The position numbers were made by a program, and so were the translations under genes. From a virus, in IMG/VR virus record IMGVR_UViG_3300009431_000080, positions 1-32,494 of that record: 32,494 nucleotides of DNA. One strand, 5' to 3'. Positions 4,336 to 30,196 of the stretch are shown piece after piece; position 1 is the first letter of the stretch; the number at the start of each line of letters is the position of its first letter. The notes beneath the pieces are model-generated. The model saw nothing but the letters and a program-made list of their open reading frames with translations, ran no database searches and was not told where the DNA came from.

Positions 4336-5709
4336 TTAATAAGATGATAAATGATCTATCTGGGGCATGATTTGGATACGTTGTCCTGATATTTCTTTAT
4401 CAATCATTTGTTGTTTGAGCCGAGAATACTCTATATAATCACCGTCCTTCATGTCAACTCTTGAATCTTTCTTTTTCTTAATTGCCCATGCCAAATAGTG
4501 TACATACATATCGTAATTCAACTCATCAAAAGTATCAGCATCTGAATTAACTACTACAACAGTTTTATAATAGTCCAACCATATGTTCCGACCATCGTAA
4601 TCCGAACTAAGCGCAGGCCAGAAATATAGTATACTCTCAAATACCGTATAAAACTGTGGTGTACCTAAACTAACTCCCTGAAAGATATTATCGCCAGCGG
4701 TGTGGTCATCAGAACCATCGGTTGAAATTGTTAGCACTCCTGTTGCGCGCGTATTTGCACTGTATACGATTGTATCAGTGCTAATTTGAATACTGCCACT
4801 ATCATCAAAATCGCGACTATCAGTTAGGGTTATATTGGCGTCACCAACAGTATAATTAGACGCAAGCGTTGTAATTGGAACGCCTTGTTTATAACTGTCC
4901 CATTGCGCTTTTGTCATTGGATCAATATTGTCCTCATTTTCAATTCGCACACCCAGGATATTCTTGTTAGTGTACGGATCCTGTAAATCAGTTGGCAGAG
5001 CAATATAATAGTCACCAGTGGACAGATTGCCAGCGTCGTAATCAAACTGCTCACGAAAACTCCAGCGTTTCAAAGAGTTATGCACATCACGACGTGCCTG
5101 AAAAAGCATGGTATTCAGGAACTCGTTTGTAATAACATTACCAATTGTTTCGTTTGCCATCTCCAACGCGCGCGTCTTCACTGCACGCACAGTATTATCT
5201 GCATACCCAGTAATAGCAATAGCATCACTGTAACCGCCGTAATAAGTGGCAGCGACCAAAGAATTATAATAACGCACAAAATAATAAGCGTAGGTTGTGC
5301 CCGTAACCACATATGTTGTTTCTGGGGCATCAACTTGTAAATCAACTGTTGCAATAACTGTTTTTGAACCCGTTGCTGTTGTTGCGCCACTAATTTCCAC
5401 TTGATCGAACAATAACTTTGACACGGGCGTATCTACTGCATGCGCGAAATCTGATGCTGCGACAGTAATAGCTGTCACTGATCCCGGCGCACCGCTCTCT
5501 TGTTTAAATTCAGTTTGTTCATGTCCAAGTTTCCCGATTAACAAAATATCTTTATCAGCAAATCCTGTGCTATTGAGCACAGTTAATGCTGTTCCGTTTG
5601 CAACAAGTGCAGCTGACAAATATGTTGACGGTTGATCAGACGTTGTTGGATGAACGATTTTAATTACATTCCCCTTAATTGAGAGAATTTTAGCACTTTC
5701 GTAAGCCAT
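4336..5709 (-). CDS. Head-tail adaptor candidate
   Basis: This 457-residue protein has two parts. Residues about 1-175 are beta-rich and Ala/Thr/Val-rich. Residues about 185-457 contain helices (VKTRALEMANETIGNVITNEFLNTMLFQARRDV is the first) and the pattern FYTVFESILYFWPALSSDY, then LDYYK and LNYDMYVHYLAWAIKKKK. The second part resembles tail adaptor proteins of podoviruses (gp4/tail tubular A-like), in which an alpha-helical bundle binds the portal ring. It ends 14 bases before the nozzle candidate. Assignment is by pattern and gene order; the N-terminal extension is larger than usual for an adaptor. Confidence 0.5.
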   Translation of the reverse strand: MAYESAKILSIKGNVIKIVHPTTSDQPSTYLSAALVANGTALTVLNSTGFADKDILLIGKLGHEQTEFKQESGAPGSVTAITVAASDFAHAVDTPVSKLLFDQVEISGATTATGSKTVIATVDLQVDAPETTYVVTGTTYAYYFVRYYNSLVAATYYGGYSDAIAITGYADNTVRAVKTRALEMANETIGNVITNEFLNTMLFQARRDVHNSLKRWSFREQFDYDAGNLSTGDYYIALPTDLQDPYTNKNILGVRIENEDNIDPMTKAQWDSYKQGVPITTLASNYTVGDANITLTDSRDFDDSGSIQISTDTIVYSANTRATGVLTISTDGSDDHTAGDNIFQGVSLGTPQFYTVFESILYFWPALSSDYDGRNIWLDYYKTVVVVNSDADTFDELNYDMYVHYLAWAIKKKKDSRVDMKDGDYIEYSRLKQQMIDKEISGQRIQIMPQIDHLSSY

Positions 5710-8183: not shown

Positions 8184-11100
8184 TTATGCGATTTGAGCTG
8201 GGACTATCATGTATTCAACAACTACAAGTGCTTTGCCTGCTGCGGCATCGCCATTTGTTCCTGTTACATATACTTCCAATGCCCTGCTTGTAGCGTTAAA
8301 AAGCCAATCATCACCCTCCGAAGCATGACCCTCAACTATTGTTATGTCTGTTCCCGCTACAATACCATCCAAATTTAAGGATTTTAAAAGTGAATCACTA
8401 TCAGCATCATAACCAACAGTAACGGCATCATCATTCGCTGTATCAGTAAATTCTTCTATAACATCAACATGAATCGCTGTGACACATGAATTTGCTGGTA
8501 ATGTTCCAAGTGATGCATTCTTATTATCATCAGCTACCCATACCGCAAGATACCCCTTTACTCCAACTATTGCGCTTAGCGCGCCGCTTCCAATTTCTGC
8601 CATGGTTGTTGATGACCCACCTATTGAAGTTATGAACTGAAGATTAGCTGTTTCTGTTCCATTAGTCGCACTTCCTAAAACTGACCTAATTGTTCCATAG
8701 GTAGTATCTGCATCAGTTGAATCTTGTCCGTTAAAATTAATTGCACCCAAAATATCTCCTTGCGCAGGAGTAGCTTTTAGATGTTCAAGCGTAATAAGCG
8801 GACCAACAGTTCCCGAACTATCTGCATCTGAATTTGTGATTCTTATACCACCACCAGAATCATTGTCAAACCCAACATGAATTTGATAATTAGTATCGGG
8901 CGTAATACTGTATGTCGCCAAATCGCCAGCTTGCAACTGTCCATCAAGCCGAGTAACACCTGCATCTACCCAAATACCCAAATTAGAAGTAGTCGCTCCA
9001 CTAGCACTAAAATATCCAGCAATATTATGACCACTTGTAACATTAGTATTAGTTACGACTGAACTAATACCATAAGCACTATGAAGAAGTTGAGCATTCG
9101 CTCCACTTCTTGTTATTTTCAATACATAACTATTGCTTCCATTGGAGCCCGCAGTAGAAATTGAATCTAGCAACATTCCTGCACCAGACGTCAAAGCATC
9201 TGCACTTATATCTACTACATTACTTGTAGTTACAGAATCACCCACAACCGTTAAAGAGGTAGATGTTGAACCACTTGTTGCCGATAGTGTAGTAAAATCT
9301 CCTGTTCCAGGTGTTCCAGCTCCGATATTAACAACATCAATTGCTCCACTATCAATATCAACATTTGTCATTTCATGATTATTGAAATCAATCTCAACTG
9401 CACCGTCTCCGCCAAAGGTTAGTTTAGCCGCAGAATGTGTCAAAGTTATATCGCCACCATCCCAGTTTATAATTCCACCTGACCCAAAATGTAAATCATT
9501 CAACCCAACTGTTCCAGTTCCAATATCAACTGTTTCATCACCGAACACAATCGCTCCATCAAATCTATTTAATCCAGCATCAGACCAAATTGCATAACTA
9601 GCAGTAAGCGTTGCATTTGCACCAGCTTGAGGAGCATTATCAATATACAATGTTGCAGCAGCAGTAATTGTTGAAGCTCCAACAAAAGCATAAGTAGGGG
9701 CAAGTATTTTTACTTCTCGTTGTGCAGCAATTGCACCAGTTGAAAACTGTTTCGTAGCAGAAAAATCTAGTAATGTTCCAACATGTTCTGTGCCAGTTGT
9801 TAAAATTAAATGGGCACCACCTGTTACAGATAACGCTGAACCTGGCGAAACACCGCCAATTGTCTGTGTAATCGTAGTTGACCCCAATTCACCAACTGAC
9901 ATTACTGTTGCAGCCGCTAATCCAGGATGTGTTCCTCCTAACGTTCCTCCGCCATCAATTATGCAATTTGTTAATCCTTCAGTAAACACAATTGCATTAC
10001 CAGCAGCTCCTTTAGTCAACCATTCAATCACAACTGTATCACCAGCTCCTGCATATGCATGTGCATTCGTGCTTTCACTACCTTCGTTGATAGTCGTTAC
10101 AATATTATCGCAAGTTTCATCCGCATCTGCGCCAATAGTAAAGTGGTCAAGATCGCCAGAACCATCTGCTTTAGCTGTAATAGTTGTTGCATTTAAAACA
10201 AATGTTTCATCTGCTGTTGGAAGACCAGACAAAGTCATTGTCCCTCGTGCTGGTTGATCAACAATAGTAAAATCATAACCACCAAGTCCTACTGCAAGCG
10301 TCATATCTCCGCTATCATGGGTAACTGACCAAAATTCTGAATTAGATTTATCAGGATCTAAATCTGAATGTCCAAATAAAGTTGGACTAGACAACATTGT
10401 ATCGTGGTCAAAATCTTTTCCTGAATTAGCTGCTGAGACAATTACAATACTGTTATTACCATTGCCACTTGTGCCTGTAACAAAATGTAATCCATCATCA
10501 GTTTCTATTCTAAATGCTCCATATTCGTTACCACCTCCAAAAAAGAGACCCTTATTATCTGTTGCGCCAAATACCAATCTATCATCTGCCCAAATTTCAC
10601 CATCTACTTCTAATGCCCCCCCAACCAACAAACTATCTGTTGCTTTAGTTGTGCTATGGCCAGGAGTTGCAGAACTGCCAATTCTTACTGGTCTATCATC
10701 TCCTGAACCTGATTTAGCGCCACCAATTAGATTTAAAAATCCGCCGTTAGTATCGCCTGCTCCTGCGGCATCAGATGCAACAGTTAATCCTACGCCTGCG
10801 CCTGAAGCTGTTGGCACACTAATAGTTAATGCTGTATCTTGTGTGCCAGTAATTTCATCAAACACATTCACAGCATCATCAAAAAAGGAATTTCCATCAA
10901 CTTCTAAAATACCAGTAACCATTAAATCATCACTTGCTGCTAGTGTATGTGAAGTTGTGCCAGCATCACCAATTCGCAAATAATCTCCTGTCGCAGGAAG
11001 GATTGTCGTTTTAGTGCCATCATTTGTAATGCTAAACGCGCGTCTGCCATTGGAGGACACGCCCAACACTCCGTCAGACGCAAGATAAAATCCTGTATCC

Positions 11101-19623: not shown

Positions 19624-21648
19624 TTATCTTGCAAATGGATTGATTGCTTTCATTGCTTTCGCTACCGTACTCTTGATCCCCCCCGTCTTTGTTGTCGGGA
19701 CTACTCTTCCTGGTTGGTTTACGCCTTTTTGTAACGTTTTCTTGCCTGGGACTACTTGTTCACCGCCCTGTGGTTGTCCACCACGCGACACAAACAAATC
19801 TGGCCGCTCAGGTTCACCCCCCCCCTGTAACCACAGGTCTGGCAACCAATCCTTGGGGTTCTCATTGTATATCTTCAATATCTGTTTCACTGATTTCATC
19901 ACTAATTCCACTGGTTGCGCCAGTAACGGTACAATTAAGTTCGCCATCTCTAATTTCTGCGCTTTTTCAATTTCTCGACTAGACGAAATGATGCTCATTG
20001 GCTTAATCCTGATCTGACCCTTCCATCGCAACCCTTTTGGCAATATTCTAAAGAAATTCTTGCCATCAGTTGGAATATACTGCTCAAATTCATTCTTTTC
20101 CAACGTTAATTGCACTTCCCGGTACCGTTTAGCATAAAAATCCTCTTGATCAACAAAATAAAAGGCCGGATCAGCATCAACTTCTTGTATATACTCTGCA
20201 ATCTTGTCGTCATCAACTAAATGTTCCACCTTTGGGATACTATACACCTGTTGAATCAATGAAATTGTCATCTCTCCATCAGCTTGCAACGCCTGTTCAA
20301 CGTTCCATAACGGCGTTTTCAATCGTTTCAAACTGCTCTCTTTTGCCTGTGCTACCTCAAACGCTGTCTTCCCTGTCACCTCGCCCTCCAGCGTCTTACT
20401 TATTGCGCTGTCCTCGTCCAATTTCTTCTGTAGAAACTCAATTCCTTTCCAACTCTCTGCCCCTGGACCCGGCACGTCTAACCACGTTATCTTTGGATCC
20501 AATACCTGTTTACCAACACCTGGCTGAATCTTTATCTTTCCGTCCCCGTCTAGCTGATCTGTGCCAGTATAAAAAAACATCTTGTAAATTGATAATACCA
20601 ACTGATCCATTGTCATATTTAATACCTTCTCCAACATCATCTTGTTCTGTCGCATGATTTCCGGTAACCCAACACCATATACCGTCTCCTGATGCCGTAA
20701 ATTCCAATGCGTGTACCAACAACTTAACTGTTTATGATCGTATGGCAACGGTTCGTCCATAATCAACACTCTGTTCGCCATCACCATAAACTTGTCGCGT
20801 GGCCGATTTTCGTAGAATATTACTTCTATAAGCTTCTTCTCCTGCATCTCCTTCTTTGCAACATTGTCATTCTTCACCATCTCTATCCCCCCTTTCGCCT
20901 GCACATACTTGCTGTTTGCCATGTCACCGAACCGAGCATCAAACTCATCCTTACTCATCACCTTCCGCCACATCCAGTCCCGACAACTTAAATCATCGTA
21001 CGGTCGCGCCATGTCGTCCACCCATACATTCCATGGATCCAAACACTCACGGTACACGTCATCGTAATCTGTAATCATCTTCTTCTTATACTTGCTTTTC
21101 CCACCTGGATTGTATTCCACTAAGTCCCGCACCTCTCTCTCAACTAACCTGTGGTACGTCCGACCTACCGCAAAACCATATTTCGCCAAATTATAAACAA
21201 ACAGTTTCAACTGACTCTTACTCTTTGCCTCGCCCCAATTGTTCTGTACTAACGCTTTCATCAACTGCGTCTGCGCCTCATACTTCTCGTTCTGCGACCA
21301 TAACTCGTGATCCGGAATCCTGTCCACCAAAATACTTAACGCTGTCTGAATCTTTACAAATGGATTAGTCGCACTGTTACGGTTCTGCCAACCCGCTGAC
21401 CCTATATCCACCTTGCCAATAGTCGTACGCCATCCTAACTCATCATCAAAATACTTCTTGCCCGGCGACCGAATCTCCTCTAACCTGTAATCTCTGTCCG
21501 CCCACCTCCATAACTTCTCTATATCATACCCATACACACTTTTCCGACTCTTCATTAACTCCTTTGCACGATTTGTTAGAAAATTAAAACTCTCCAGCTC
21601 CTCTCCCATTGGCTGATACCCTCCCTTTTGCTCCTCTTTAACTTCCAT
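19624..21648 (-). CDS. Portal protein
   Basis: A 674-residue protein directly after the large terminase. It has the long helical N-terminal part (WRWADRDYRLEEIRSPGKKY), a clip/stem-like core with CWYTHWNLRHQETVYGVGLP and EIMRQNKMMLEKVLNMTMDQ, and a region ITWLDVPGPGAESWKGIEFL before a helix ending in KTLEGEVTGKTAFEVAQAKE. These are hallmarks of large podovirus-type portals, which form the dodecameric DNA channel. Length is at the upper end, as in short-tailed phages. The C-terminus is Gly/Pro/Lys-rich. Leader TTTAAAAAAAAAT-ATG, without a Shine-Dalgarno site. Confidence 0.85.
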   Translation of the reverse strand: MEVKEEQKGGYQPMGEELESFNFLTNRAKELMKSRKSVYGYDIEKLWRWADRDYRLEEIRSPGKKYFDDELGWRTTIGKVDIGSAGWQNRNSATNPFVKIQTALSILVDRIPDHELWSQNEKYEAQTQLMKALVQNNWGEAKSKSQLKLFVYNLAKYGFAVGRTYHRLVEREVRDLVEYNPGGKSKYKKKMITDYDDVYRECLDPWNVWVDDMARPYDDLSCRDWMWRKVMSKDEFDARFGDMANSKYVQAKGGIEMVKNDNVAKKEMQEKKLIEVIFYENRPRDKFMVMANRVLIMDEPLPYDHKQLSCWYTHWNLRHQETVYGVGLPEIMRQNKMMLEKVLNMTMDQLVLSIYKMFFYTGTDQLDGDGKIKIQPGVGKQVLDPKITWLDVPGPGAESWKGIEFLQKKLDEDSAISKTLEGEVTGKTAFEVAQAKESSLKRLKTPLWNVEQALQADGEMTISLIQQVYSIPKVEHLVDDDKIAEYIQEVDADPAFYFVDQEDFYAKRYREVQLTLEKNEFEQYIPTDGKNFFRILPKGLRWKGQIRIKPMSIISSSREIEKAQKLEMANLIVPLLAQPVELVMKSVKQILKIYNENPKDWLPDLWLQGGGEPERPDLFVSRGGQPQGGEQVVPGKKTLQKGVNQPGRVVPTTKTGGIKSTVAKAMKAINPFAR

Positions 21649-21656
21649 ATTTTTTT

Positions 21657-23051
21657 TTAAATATAATTCTGATCGTACCGGAAACTCATGTCCCCTGACT
21701 CAGCCGCCTCCCTCATCTTCTGTAACTCTAACTCCACTCCCGTCTTTGGGACAACACTTCGCCGATGGCGAAGTGTTTGTAAAAAATACCTCAAGTCGTC
21801 TGCACCATGATCCTCACCCCTAGTATCTAAATCGTCCATCCGATGCTCGTCATACTGCAATTCCGGTACCGTCCGCACCATGTTCCGACACACATCAAAT
21901 ATACATATGTTCGCATACCTGTCTCCCCTACCATCCTTCCTAACCCTCAAATACTCCCGCACACTGTTCCATCCTCCTATCCGATCATTGTCCGCCTTCA
22001 CCAAATTCGCCACCCCCTCTCTCATCAACACCTCCGCTATACTCTCACCAGTGTGACTCCGACTAAAACAACTCGGATCAATTGTCGTATACTGATAATT
22101 CTCACCCTCGCTCATCTCCAGTATCTTCCGCGCATTCTCCACCGCTGTCCTCTCCGTCTCATACAACTCCCTGTAACACCACACCTTCCCATCATAGTCC
22201 ACCGCATACCAATGACAACTAAATGGCGCCCGATACCCATAATCTATACTCCTGTACCTTAACCACCCCACCGGTATCTCAAATGGACCGCATACATGCA
22301 CATCCCTTCTCCATTCACCGAAAAACTGACCCTCAAATATGTCCCAATCTCCATGTAATAACGCACGACGCTGATGCTCTGGTAACGCCTCTAACCTCTT
22401 CACATAATCCGGGTCTCGCTCCATCAAAATCTTGTTGTCATATACCTTTGCCGGTATAAATACATACTCGTCCTTCTCCGCCATCTCCTCCGGCTCAAAC
22501 TTCCGATCAACAAATATCCTCTTCACCCACGCGTGCCCAACCCCCCCCGGATTACTCGCCAATATCATGTTCGCAAATATACCCTTGCCCACTGTCCTTA
22601 ATCTACTACGCAAATACTTAAACTGGAATTCCGTGAAATGCGTCAACTCATCAATCGCTATCAAATCATACTCAGCACTCTGATATTTATAAACATCATT
22701 GTCACTCGCACAATGCGCAAACGTTAACTGACTACCCCCCAAAAACTTTGCCTTGTGTACACTATAATTATACCTGCATACCCTGTTCCTTCCCATCGTC
22801 GGCACTATGTCTAAAAACTCCTTGATTGCACTACTCTCTAACTCCGGAAACGTCTTACGGAAATATACCGCGTTCAATTTCACTCCCGCATTCTCCGCCT
22901 CCGCTATCTGGGCCAATGTCTCTTCAAGTAGGGCTCTCGTCTTACCCCCTCCCGCCGCTCCACCGTAAAACCTGTACCTGTGCGGCGCAGTGTGAAACTC
23001 CCTCTGACGTGGATTGGGATCGTATCCCGTACTTACTTCTTTTGGTTCCAT
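21657..23051 (-). CDS. terL: Terminase large subunit
   Basis: A 464-residue protein with both required domains. The ATPase has Walker A GGAAGGGKT (residues 30-38), Walker B LIAIDE (130-135) and coupling motif ASNPGG (165-170). The RNase-H-like nuclease has Asp270 in SIDYGY, Asp325 in TIDPSC and Asp418/419 in HGADDLRY. The length matches the usual 450-550. It cuts and translocates DNA into the prohead through the portal encoded next. The first residues (PNPRQREFHTAPHRYRFYGG) are typical of terminase_6/3-type large subunits. Leader AAAAAAT-ATG without a Shine-Dalgarno site; a duplicated leader motif with a DnaA box lies upstream. Confidence 0.95.
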   Translation of the reverse strand: MEPKEVSTGYDPNPRQREFHTAPHRYRFYGGAAGGGKTRALLEETLAQIAEAENAGVKLNAVYFRKTFPELESSAIKEFLDIVPTMGRNRVCRYNYSVHKAKFLGGSQLTFAHCASDNDVYKYQSAEYDLIAIDELTHFTEFQFKYLRSRLRTVGKGIFANMILASNPGGVGHAWVKRIFVDRKFEPEEMAEKDEYVFIPAKVYDNKILMERDPDYVKRLEALPEHQRRALLHGDWDIFEGQFFGEWRRDVHVCGPFEIPVGWLRYRSIDYGYRAPFSCHWYAVDYDGKVWCYRELYETERTAVENARKILEMSEGENYQYTTIDPSCFSRSHTGESIAEVLMREGVANLVKADNDRIGGWNSVREYLRVRKDGRGDRYANICIFDVCRNMVRTVPELQYDEHRMDDLDTRGEDHGADDLRYFLQTLRHRRSVVPKTGVELELQKMREAAESGDMSFRYDQNYI

Positions 23052-23959: not shown

Positions 23960-24076
23960 ATGCAAAAGTATTCAAAGCGCTATGGTTGGCGTTGGGCAAA
24001 GTCCAAAACAGCCAAACAAAACAAGGAAAGTGTCAAGAGGTCGATTGACGCGGGAAATATTAAGAAAGGAAAATAA
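23960..24076 (+). CDS. Small basic protein, 38 aa
   Basis: First frame after the rightward promoter. It starts MQKYSKRYGWRWAKSKTAKQ and ends AGNIKKGK. It is strongly basic and has no recognised family. The leader AAAACCT-ATG is shared by the genes at 25048 and the tiny frame at 24594. The stop lies 4 bases before the next ATG, with AAAGGA for the next gene inside its last codons, so translational coupling is likely. A longer frame in another phase (from 23982) is not favoured because its internal ATG at 24081 has the better leader. Confidence 0.5.
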   Translation: MQKYSKRYGWRWAKSKTAKQNKESVKRSIDAGNIKKGK

Positions 24077-26296: not shown

Positions 26297-26494
26297 CGCA
26301 TGCGTGTTGCAAACCAGCTTGTCGTCATGACAGAGCAAGTCAGTTGCGAGTTTATACAATCAAGCAAAATCTTTTGAAGATATAAAGCGCGATAGAATAA
26401 TTTGCCCGCTAGTCTAAAAAGTTTTGTTTGACAATTGCGACATCTAGTCAAATTCATCATACAACACGGACGCGAATTTGCCAACCACACAAAC

Positions 26495-26503
26495 TGTGGA
26501 TAA
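26495..26503 (-). promoter_or_regulatory. DnaA box at left edge of the origin candidate
   Basis: TGTGGATAA on the plus strand, i.e. TTATCCACA on the minus strand. Its minus-strand neighbour is TTTGAC, close to a -35-like hexamer. Confidence 0.7.
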
Positions 26504-26561
26504 GTCAAAGTATGAATTCATTGTGAATCCATGCTCGCTCTTTTTCAACCAACAAAGGAAT

Positions 26562-26571
26562 GGGGGGGGGG
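26562..26571. repeat. Homopolymer of ten G
   Basis: A run of ten G residues in the non-coding origin region. It may be a sequencing-sensitive site or a G-quadruplex-type element; nothing else in the window has such a run. Confidence 0.6.
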
Positions 26572-26618
26572 AATCAAAACAGTTGACAAGAATCCAAGAA
26601 TGTTGAAAGGGGGTGGCA

Positions 26619-26631
26619 GGTGGTAGATGAA
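26619..26631 (+). repeat. Origin iteron, copy 1
   Basis: GGTGGTAGATGAA, preceded by a related GGTGGCA. Its inverted partner ATCTACCACC (26691-26700) lies across the AT-rich tract. Confidence 0.75.
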
Positions 26632-26640
26632 TTCCATACC

Positions 26641-26690
26641 TATACTATATTATCTTTTTTCTTATAAATATTATATATATATATATATAC
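26641..26690. other. AT-rich tract, likely duplex-unwinding element
   Basis: Fifty bases almost entirely A/T, with alternating TA at 26671-26689, flanked by inverted GGTGGTAGAT/ATCTACCACC repeats. Suits strand separation at an origin. Confidence 0.6.
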
Positions 26691-26717
26691 ATCTACCACC
26701 TACCACCACTACCATGT
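26691..26717 (-). repeat. Inverted iteron with TACCACC units
   Basis: ATCTACCACC at 26691-26700 is the complement of copy 1, followed by TACCACCACTACC, partial tandem units of the same motif. Confidence 0.65.
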
Positions 26718-26746
26718 CTATGTTGTAAATTTACACAAAAAAAGAC

Positions 26747-26793
26747 GGTGGTAGATGAAAATTCATCTACCACCCACCTACCACCTACCACCC
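26747..26793. repeat. Iteron palindrome 2
   Basis: GGTGGTAGATGAA at 26747-26759, two A residues, and its exact complement at 26762-26774, then CACCTACCACCTACCACC tandem units up to 26793. A 13-bp inverted repeat. Confidence 0.8.
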
Positions 26794-26799
26794 TAAAAA

Positions 26800-26828
26800 T
26801 TGACTTTTAATTTATTTATGGCTATTTT
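26800..26828 (+). promoter_or_regulatory. Promoter candidate inside the origin
   Basis: TTGACT at 26800-26805, 17-base spacer, TATTTT at 26823-26828. Reads rightward through iteron palindrome 3; could make an RNA for origin activation. Moderate match only. Confidence 0.4.
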
Positions 26829-26861
26829 TTGACAATTTGCGCAAGTGCTGGTGGCAGGTGA

Positions 26862-26888
26862 GGTGGTAGATGAAATTCATCTACCACC
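26862..26888. repeat. Iteron palindrome 3
   Basis: GGTGGTAGATGAA at 26862-26874, one A, and its exact complement at 26876-26888. Preceded by GGTGGCAGGTGA, as copy 1 is by GGTGGCA. Confidence 0.8.
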
Positions 26889-26928
26889 AATTAGCTTGTC
26901 AATATAATAAATTTGTTGTAAGAATAAC

Positions 26929-26950
26929 GAGCTTGCAACAAGCTCATTTT
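26929..26950 (+). terminator. Stem-loop, CAA loop, with T-run
   Basis: GAGCTTG at 26929-26935, CAA loop, CAAGCTC at 26939-26945, then ATTTTT. It would end a transcript coming out of the origin before the helicase promoter. Member of the CAA/TTG-loop hairpin family. Confidence 0.6.
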
Positions 26951-26959
26951 TGTGGATAA
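26951..26959 (-). promoter_or_regulatory. DnaA box beside the helicase promoter
   Basis: TGTGGATAA (TTATCCACA on the minus strand), eight bases before the -35 of the helicase promoter. Confidence 0.7.
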
Positions 26960-26967
26960 CTCAACGT

Positions 26968-26996
26968 TTGACGGCTTCAAAAACATCAATTATAAT
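26968..26996 (+). promoter_or_regulatory. Strong sigma-70-type promoter for the helicase operon
   Basis: TTGACG at 26968-26973, 17-base spacer, perfect TATAAT at 26991-26996. The transcript would start at about 27002-27004, exactly where segment A of the structured leader begins, giving a 5' leader of about 118 bases. Confidence 0.8.
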
Positions 26997-27001
26997 GAAG
27001 A

Positions 27002-27092
27002 TATATGATGATCAAAAGACCACCAGCAACAAAAAAACGACAACTTACGGGTTGGCTTTTTTTCATCATATAGTTGTTGGTGGTCTTTTGAT
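27002..27092 (+). promoter_or_regulatory. Structured 5' leader of the helicase gene (pseudoknot/switch)
   Basis: Segment A (TATATGATG, 27002-27010) is followed directly by B (27011-27030). A' (CATCATATA, 27064-27072) is followed by B' (27073-27092). A pairs perfectly with A' (9 bp) and B pairs with B' over 20 positions with one G-U. The order A-B-A'-B' means both can form only as a pseudoknot, or they exclude each other. Between them A7...CAAC/GTTG...T7 looks like a weak terminator (27031-27063). This suggests attenuation or copy-number control of the helicase. Confidence 0.7.
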
Positions 27093-27121: not shown

Positions 27122-28555
27122 ATGACAGATAAATTAACAAAATTAAAACGCAAAAACGCAGAAATTAAAGCTCGCCAAAAGGTTGTTCAGACCACTGAAT
27201 TATATGTTAAGGAGGTTGGCAAAACCCTTATATATTGCCGGAGTTGGGGGCGGTTTTTGTATTATAATGATAAGTATTTTGAGCTTTTGCAGACGCACAG
27301 ATTACAGAAGATGTTATGGGATTTTCTCAAAGATTTTGACATAAAATTTGACATTACGCCAGCATTTTTGTCGTCTGTAATTGATGCAATCAAAATAAAC
27401 ACGGAATATAATATCTCAGATCACGAGTTAGCGCACAACTATTTCGCGTTCAATGATACACTTCTTAATACAGACACATTTAAATGCGAGGATTTTTCAC
27501 TCGATATTCCATGTTTCAAATATATAGATATTGACCTTAAATCTACGCCCAACAAACCAATGCCAGTATTTGACAAGTATATTGAGTCGTCGCTTGTTTA
27601 TGAAGAAGACAACATGTCTCCGGATCAAGGACTCATAGATCTTTATCAAGAAATGTGGGGCATGTTATTTTCAGCGCATAGGGACGCAAGTAAAGTGTTC
27701 TTTTTGAAAGGCACAGGAGACAATGGCAAATCAATTACTACCGAATTGATGATACGCGCGCTAGGCGAACAGTATGTCAGTGCGTCGTCATTGCAAAAAC
27801 TCACCTCTGACAATTTTGGCAGGCAGGCTCTGGTAGGCAAGATTCTAAATGTGTGTTCAGAAGAAGAATCAACCAAAATTAAGAATGACGCGTTTAAAGC
27901 ACTCGTGACAGGCGAACTCATCACTGCGGAACGGAAGTTTGAGAACGCGTTCGACTTCCATCCACGTGCGAAATTCGTATTCGCAACAAACGACGCACCG
28001 AACTTCATGAACCTCGAATACGCAATGAAAAAACGAATGACCATAATTCCGTGGTATGCACAGTTCCCCAAAGGAGACCCACAACGCGTCGACGGACTAC
28101 TAGAAAAACTCATCAAAGAGCTCCCACAAATCGTCGTGTGGGCACTCAAAGGACTCAAACGCCTCCAACAAAACCACTTCATATTCACCGAATCAGAATC
28201 AACGCAATACGAAATGCGAGAACTCATGACAGCATCCACATCAGCACGACCGTATATATACGAAAATTATGATATTCTCACAAAAGACGAAATCAAAAAC
28301 GACACTGAACCGCTTAATATTAGCACAGACATTTACCCAAATTACAAAAATTGGTGCATATCAAATGGATTCCAAGCAATGAGCGTTATAACACTCGGCA
28401 AACGAATAACACAGATCGAAGGAATGAGGAAAGCCAAACGGAAAAATAATACATATTATTATTTAAGACCAAAGGAAACACGGGTAAATATGAACGAGAA
28501 CGAGGTAATACCGTCCGAAGAGTTTCAGGACGCCAATACTCAAATTCCGTTTTAG
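27122..28555 (+). CDS. SF3 replicative helicase (D5/P4-type)
   Basis: Preferred start ATG at 27122 (MTDKLTKLKR, 477 residues); a TTG ten codons upstream lies inside the stem-loop and is not used. The SF3 helicase core is complete: Walker A GTGDNGKS (197-204), Walker B ILNVCSEEE (about 241-249), sensor FATND (287-291) and an arginine finger region KKRMTIIPW (303-311). The N-terminal 150 residues resemble the D5_N segment seen before phage/plasmid helicases, but no AEP-type primase motifs are seen. The C-terminal 100 residues look like a winged-helix domain (TLGKRITQIEGMRKAKRKNN). It would unwind the origin directly to its left. Codon use changes about halfway (see findings). Confidence 0.92.
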   Translation: MTDKLTKLKRKNAEIKARQKVVQTTELYVKEVGKTLIYCRSWGRFLYYNDKYFELLQTHRLQKMLWDFLKDFDIKFDITPAFLSSVIDAIKINTEYNISDHELAHNYFAFNDTLLNTDTFKCEDFSLDIPCFKYIDIDLKSTPNKPMPVFDKYIESSLVYEEDNMSPDQGLIDLYQEMWGMLFSAHRDASKVFFLKGTGDNGKSITTELMIRALGEQYVSASSLQKLTSDNFGRQALVGKILNVCSEEESTKIKNDAFKALVTGELITAERKFENAFDFHPRAKFVFATNDAPNFMNLEYAMKKRMTIIPWYAQFPKGDPQRVDGLLEKLIKELPQIVVWALKGLKRLQQNHFIFTESESTQYEMRELMTASTSARPYIYENYDILTKDEIKNDTEPLNISTDIYPNYKNWCISNGFQAMSVITLGKRITQIEGMRKAKRKNNTYYYLRPKETRVNMNENEVIPSEEFQDANTQIPF

Positions 28556-28592: not shown

Positions 28593-29129
28593 ATGAACAA
28601 ACAAACACGAAACCAAATACGCGCGTTCATTGAAGAATTCCCATCATCAGAACGCAAAAAGATGCGAAAAAGGTATCTCAATGAACAGACAGTTGAGCTA
28701 AACGTTGTAATTGATGGCATATTTGCGCTTGTAGACAATGTTAAACAACATTGTGATTGGCTGGCGGACGTAACCATTGAATTATACGAGCTCGAACAGA
28801 AGATGCGATTACGAGACCGATACAAGCGCGAGTTAAACATGATAATGGCTAACAAACCATACAATCATATAACGGATTACGATATTGAACTTGCACGGCA
28901 GATAGATGTTGCGTCATTGGATCTGATTGATGGGCAGTTCCCGTCGTCAGGTGGGCGATACATGGCGCCGTGTTTATGGCACAAGGAAAAGCATCCAAGT
29001 TTAGTGATGTATCCGAATGGAGGGTTCTTCTGTTTTGGATGTCAAAAATATGGGAATGCGATTGATGTTGTGATGGAGACAATGGAGCTAGACTTTATTA
29101 AAGCAATTAAATATTTATTAAATATATGA
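28593..29129 (+). CDS. Stand-alone DnaG-type CHC2 zinc-finger protein
   Basis: Residues about 120-178 match the zinc-binding domain of DnaG-type primases: Cys127-x2-His130, then Cys147-x2-Cys150 in FFCFGCQKYGNAIDVV, followed by METMELDFIKAIKYL, the usual helix after this ribbon. The N-terminal 115 residues are helical and charged (FIEEFPSSERKKMRKRYLNE, then ELEQKMRLRDRYKRELNM). No TOPRIM or catalytic primase domain is present. It would recognise primer start sites as a partner of a separate enzyme, or of the host primase. The neighbour 29126 begins at a 4-base ATGA overlap. Confidence 0.85.
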   Translation: MNKQTRNQIRAFIEEFPSSERKKMRKRYLNEQTVELNVVIDGIFALVDNVKQHCDWLADVTIELYELEQKMRLRDRYKRELNMIMANKPYNHITDYDIELARQIDVASLDLIDGQFPSSGGRYMAPCLWHKEKHPSLVMYPNGGFFCFGCQKYGNAIDVVMETMELDFIKAIKYLLNI

Positions 29130-29980: not shown

Positions 29981-30196
29981 ATGCCAAAAGTAATTCCGCA
30001 ACACAAAAAGACACGGTTCAGAAAGTATTTGGATCGGAACAAGATTTCGGTAGCGTTTTTAACGTATAAGTCAGGGTTAGCGTATTCGACGATATACAAG
30101 ATCGTGCAGGGGTATTCGCATGGGACAAGTATGTTCACGATCAGGAAGCTCCTGCGTGCATTAAATTGTAAGTTTGAGGATATTTTTGATGTTTAA
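29981..30196 (+). CDS. Cro/CI-type HTH transcriptional regulator, 71 aa
   Basis: The segment KISVAFLTYKSGLAYSTIYK (residues 21-40) followed by IVQGYSHG fits the HTH_XRE/Cro motif: helix 2, turn, recognition helix, then FTIRKLLRALNCKFEDIFDV typical of the helix 4-5 end (LLRALNC..EDIFD). No C-terminal dimerisation domain, so it is Cro-like in size. It has its own promoter with two DnaA boxes. It may bind the dyads at the divergent promoter or the origin repeats; target not shown. Confidence 0.85.
   Translation: MPKVIPQHKKTRFRKYLDRNKISVAFLTYKSGLAYSTIYKIVQGYSHGTSMFTIRKLLRALNCKFEDIFDV

Follow-up and report, generated by a model that had tools for sequence, protein, structure and literature searches.

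A probable iteron-type replication origin beside the P4-family/D5 helicase gene of an uncultured phage

The DNA analyzed here (the window) is the whole of IMG/VR record IMGVR_UViG_3300009431_000080, which is 32,494 bases long. The terminase, the putative portal, and the structural genes occupy the minus strand as far as about 23.8 kb, and the early genes are on the plus strand from position 23,982 (Table 1). The phage is uncultured and belongs to an unclassified group, and since it has its own terminase it is not a satellite. Between 26,091 and the start codon of a helicase gene at 27,122 there is a gap of about 1 kb without a plausible gene, and a cluster of repeats is located inside this gap. 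A change of GC skew at this site had been suggested as a check, but the skew minimum is near 23.5–24 kb, where the gene orientation switches, and not at 26.6 kb.

Table 1. Positions of repeats, nearby motifs, and genes in the window; the last row gives the repeats of the related contig L007 (see text)
Feature	Position	Strand	Remarks
Putative portal	19624-21648		assigned by position and size
Large terminase	21657-23051		similar to large terminases annotated in phages
Exact DnaA box TTATCCACA, upstream of iterons	26495-26503	-	
G10 tract	26562-26571	+	41 bp before first iteron half-site
Iteron pair 1, left arm	26612-26631	+	half-site GGTGGCA and GGTGGTAGATGAA
AT tract	26632-26687		56 bp, 87.5% A+T; between the arms of pair 1; putative melting site
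Iteron pair 1, right arm, and half-site	26688-26707	-	1 mismatch
Iteron pair 2	26747-26774		palindrome, 13-bp arms, 2-bp spacer
Extra GGTGGTA half-sites	26775-26792	-	following pair 2
Half-site and iteron pair 3	26850-26888		palindrome at 26862-26888, 1-bp spacer
Exact DnaA box TTATCCACA, downstream of iterons	26951-26959	-	
P4-family/D5 SF3 helicase	27122-28555	+	profile matches; probable initiator
CHC2 zinc-finger protein	28593-29129	+	profile match; probable primase component
Cro/C1-type HTH protein	29981-30196		71 aa
GGGTGCAGTA in L007	5241, 5330, 5375, 5396, 5414, 5493, 5510	+, -, +, -, -, +, -	

The repeat GGTGGTAGATGAA has five exact copies at 26619(+), 26747(+), 26762(-), 26862(+), and 26876(-), and a sixth copy with one mismatch at 26688(-), which contains the shorter sequence ATCTACCACC at 26691. 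With at most one mismatch allowed, all six copies are within 26619–26888 and none was found elsewhere in the 32,494-bp record, while the mean in shuffled sequences was 0.02 and none of 100 shuffles reached six. The copies form three inverted pairs (26619/26688, 26747/26762, and 26862/26876), and a 7-bp unit underlies the repeat (GGTGGYA, followed by GGTGGTA and GATGAA), with 11 GGTGGYA half-sites within 26612–26888. Along the cluster the strand order is +, -, +, -, extra minus half-sites, +, -. Repeated 10-mers occupied 125 bases of the best 350-bp stretch; the maxima in shuffles were 55 for the whole record (n = 15) and 50 for the region (n = 200). The repeats are confined to one non-coding stretch of 277 bp (26612–26888). 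In the preliminary description, the positions of the repeats, their complements, the shorter complement at 26691, and the DnaA boxes at 26495 and 26951 were all correct, and its two perfect palindromes with 13-bp arms (26747–26774 and 26862–26888) are real. The AT tract that it described between the first copy and 26691 was confirmed as well, with a length of 56 bp (26632–26687) instead of 50 bases. This tract is probably the melting site.

The only relative of the whole replication block that we found is a diverged phage on IMG/VR contig IMGVR_UViG_3300031965_000118 (L007, a 29-kb record), which carries most of the comparative weight. Its helicase is 38% identical to that of the window, and the order of the genes for the helicase, the CHC2 protein, the HTH protein (kept in L007, 46%), a 134-aa protein, and an exonuclease is the same in both. 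Directly upstream of the L007 helicase, another repeat, GGGTGCAGTA, is present in six exact copies and one near copy within 279 bp, with one more near match elsewhere in the record, and the 13-mer GGTGGTAGATGAA of the window is absent from the L007 record. The strand order, the span of about 280 bp, and a first inverted pair around a TATATA-rich tract are common to the window and L007, and exact or near DnaA boxes are beside or after the iterons in L007 as in the window. Judging from these two sequences, a layout that was kept while the repeat changed is what coevolution of initiator and site would give, and it would be hard to reconcile with chance. L007 also contains a TnpB-like gene (judged by eye) within the replication block at 8597–9769 and a palindrome with 20-bp arms between the origin and the helicase at 5592–5635; these are perhaps remnants of mobile elements.

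The window helicase has 477 aa and no primase domain, and the CHC2 protein comes from a separate gene. The helicase matched TIGR01613 ("phage/plasmid primase, P4 family") with E = 7e-39 and 133.5 bits (curated cut-off 108.7) and DUF5906 with 74 bits (cut-off 27.6). Its C-terminal match to Pox_D5 (22.7 bits) was barely above the cut-off of 21.4, and the L007 homolog was below it. A profile made from two sequences, the window and L007 helicases, matched PDB 7OLA with 5e-15 over the helicase core and reaching into the C-terminal part. This structure is listed as "DNA primase" and we take it to be SaPI5 Rep. The AlphaFold model of the helicase had a pLDDT of 31 and was unusable. Between the window and L007 helicases, identity is 47% in residues 191–320 and 32% in residues 381–450, and the lower value at the C-terminal end would fit a changing DNA-binding end but is no proof of it. 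Iteron binding by SaPI Rep and Cch2 resides in the C-terminal domain (PMC7581432), the winged-helix domain of P4 alpha binds origin repeats (PMC4234260), and in the literature the studied members of this helicase family load themselves. By analogy, the adjacent P4-family/D5 helicase is most likely the protein that recognizes the iterons. The suggestion that the initiator might be a new one found no support, and no additional, new initiator for GGTGGTAGATGAA is needed, since the adjacent gene encodes a P4-family/D5 helicase whose relatives recognize iterons by the C-terminal domain.

The exact DnaA box TTATCCACA occurs six times in the record (23085, 23825, 26495, 26951, 29900, and 29917), while 0.52 occurrences are expected and none of 100 shuffles reached six. 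It is possible that these boxes use or titrate host DnaA. All six fall between 23 and 30 kb. Similar to the G10 tract of the window, there is a G8 tract in L007 at 5196–5203, 38 bp upstream of its first iteron, and a C8 tract in Phocaeicola phage PV4-TP1 (L024) at 1575–1582, about 130 bp upstream of the iterons. The sequence TGAATTC is found where the inner side of the first iteron adjoins the AT tract in the window (26628–26634), L007 (5264–5270), and Lactobacillus phage A2 (L023, 3958–3964), and the iterons of the three differ. Long hairpins are located just upstream of the helicase in the window (27011–27092) and L007 (5702–5798), with z of about -7.7 each and no obvious shared sequence. 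The hairpin may belong to the conserved elements of the origin, but the L007 hairpin interval also holds other palindromes and may contain ends of mobile elements. Rfam gave sub-threshold matches to microRNA models only, an artifact of the inverted repeats.

We compared 14 other phages with related helicases, all from one hit list and not a random sample, and in about nine of these 14 the strongest repeat cluster was beside the helicase gene. In A2, PY4, CR28, PSA, AmM-1, Javan633, and GMA4 the cluster immediately followed the gene, and in PV4-TP1 and Salete it was upstream of it; that of PY4 was just modestly above its own shuffles, and that of Salete was a two-copy repeat. No clear helicase-adjacent cluster was found in the other five (9NA, Vash, Zion, 159E36-2b, and NatCom_29429). 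Exact or near DnaA boxes were beside the iterons in Gordonia phage GMA4, and in A2, PV4-TP1, PSA, CR28, and AmM-1, where iterons are also next to the helicase gene, none of the DnaA box sequences used in the search was present. A nucleotide search with the whole gap gave no match in phages, a search with the repeat cluster gave only chance-level matches in plasmids (E = 0.9), and searches of IMG/VR with the exact palindrome and 20-mers gave no match. The layout of the cluster is like those of the A2 and PICI origins. Helicase searches in genome_contigs gave no confirmed relative. The contigs L036–L041 share the putative portal and the terminase (35–49%). No match to the window helicase was found on them within the stretches compared, so they are uninformative on the conservation of the origin. 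From the sequences, the head and replication modules appear to be exchanged separately.

PICI origins have an AT-rich region between two iteron sets (PMC6092414). The rep-ori modules of SaPIs and other PICIs (SaPI5, SaPIbov1, and EcCICFT073) have this arrangement beside an initiator helicase, and those of the SaPI5 type encode a D5/Primase_Cterm helicase like the window (PMC6092414, PMC7581432). The window has the same layout, with 26612–26631 and 26688–26707 around the AT tract. However, SaPI and PICI origins are directly 3' of rep, while the window cluster is 5' of the helicase, and the window differs further in a helicase that is not fused to a primase, in two extra palindromic pairs, and in its DnaA boxes. 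Moreover, SaPIs and PICIs are satellites, while the window, which encodes a large terminase and a putative portal, is a phage. The record of Lactobacillus phage A2 (AJ251789) has a rep_origin annotated directly after the homologous gene ORF35. Its sequence reads ACGGGAGGATGAATTC, AT tract, ATCCTCCCGT, with inverted ACGGGAGGAT iterons. Like the window, A2 is a tailed phage and has an AT tract enclosed by inverted iterons, with TATATATA, the TGAATTC edge, and an adjoining homologous helicase gene; unlike the window, its origin is downstream of a larger primase-helicase gene, the iteron is different, and the stretch read contains none of the searched DnaA boxes. Phage P4 alpha is of the same family as the window helicase by TIGR01613, but it carries its own TOPRIM primase and unites the functions of primase, helicase, and origin binding in a single polypeptide, while the CHC2 protein of the window is separate. 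P4 replication requires ori and the distant crr. The archaeal plasmid pRN1 also encodes an SF3 helicase, which has a winged-helix end, and has a stem-loop of about 100 nt beside the gene (PMC4234260), comparable to the hairpin of the window; unlike the window, pRN1 is without iterons and its stem-loop is downstream of the gene. Strictly, the window origin is neither a PICI nor a P4 replicon, since it lies 5' of the gene, the primase is encoded apart from the helicase, and the element, having a terminase, is a phage; by analogy, however, it would work like them.

We consider it very likely, from the sequence evidence, that 26612–26888 is the replication origin of the phage and that it is recognized by the adjacent P4-family/D5 SF3 helicase. 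There is good support for the proposed iteron-type origin with its AT-rich core next to the helicase, since the layout is common to L007, the annotated A2 origin, and other helicase-adjacent clusters. We infer that the helicase product would bind the GGTGGTAGATGAA iterons, most likely via its C-terminal domain, and that assemblies on the inverted iterons flanking the AT tract would melt the tract and load themselves as the replicative helicase. Priming and extension would follow, carried out by the separately encoded CHC2 protein and by enzymes of the host. Host DnaA may contribute through the boxes on either side of the iterons. As such, this origin is of a known kind and a clear new example of it, comparable to those of the staphylococcal islands and the lactobacillus phage. 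It is doubtful that it represents a distinct subtype of D5-helicase origins, characterized by an unfused helicase with three inverted iteron pairs on its 5' side, a G-tract at a constant distance of about 40 bp upstream of the first iteron, and surrounding DnaA boxes. In such a subtype, the phage initiator and host DnaA would act jointly, and the G-tract would serve a defined purpose (e.g., as a priming or loading boundary).

Other functions of the repeats were also considered. Two palindromes of 27–28 bp upstream of an operon could be operators through which a repressor, such as the 71-aa HTH protein conserved in L007, controls the helicase operon while the origin is elsewhere, and a promoter-like site (TTGACG-17-TATAAT, 26968–26996) is indeed between the repeats and the helicase. 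But the repeats are at least 80 bp upstream of this site, the spacers of 2, 1, and 56 bp vary more than a dimeric repressor would readily accept, and an AT tract and tandem 7-bp half-sites are not features of operators. Moreover, the HTH homologs stay similar although the repeats changed completely. We regard this explanation as distinctly improbable, although operator and origin roles of the repeats could coexist.

The excess of exact DnaA boxes, two of which flank the iterons, and the exact or near boxes beside the iterons in L007 and GMA4 would also fit an origin driven by host DnaA, with the iterons as accessory or copy-control sites for another protein and the helicase loaded secondarily. 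This too is distinctly improbable, since the six boxes are spread across 7 kb, unlike a clustered oriC, five phages have helicase-adjacent iterons without the searched boxes, and the studied helicases of this family are self-loading. It is highly improbable that the repeats serve partition, packaging, or recombination instead of the start of replication. Palindromic repeats in general can be partition or recombination sites, and the exact repeat was in no other record searched, but the scan of the proteins encoded around the repeats revealed neither a partition gene nor an integrase, and the helicase-adjacent position is common to many phages and the annotated A2 origin.

The layout of two iteron sets around an AT-rich region has been stated to be common to no replicon outside PICIs (PMC6092414). 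A2, the window, and L007 show a PICI-type layout, which counts against this exclusivity. The analysis names a probable origin and a probable initiator for an unclassified phage group. With the same layout and completely changed iterons, the window and L007 are a natural pair for testing how DNA specificity changes in initiator helicases.
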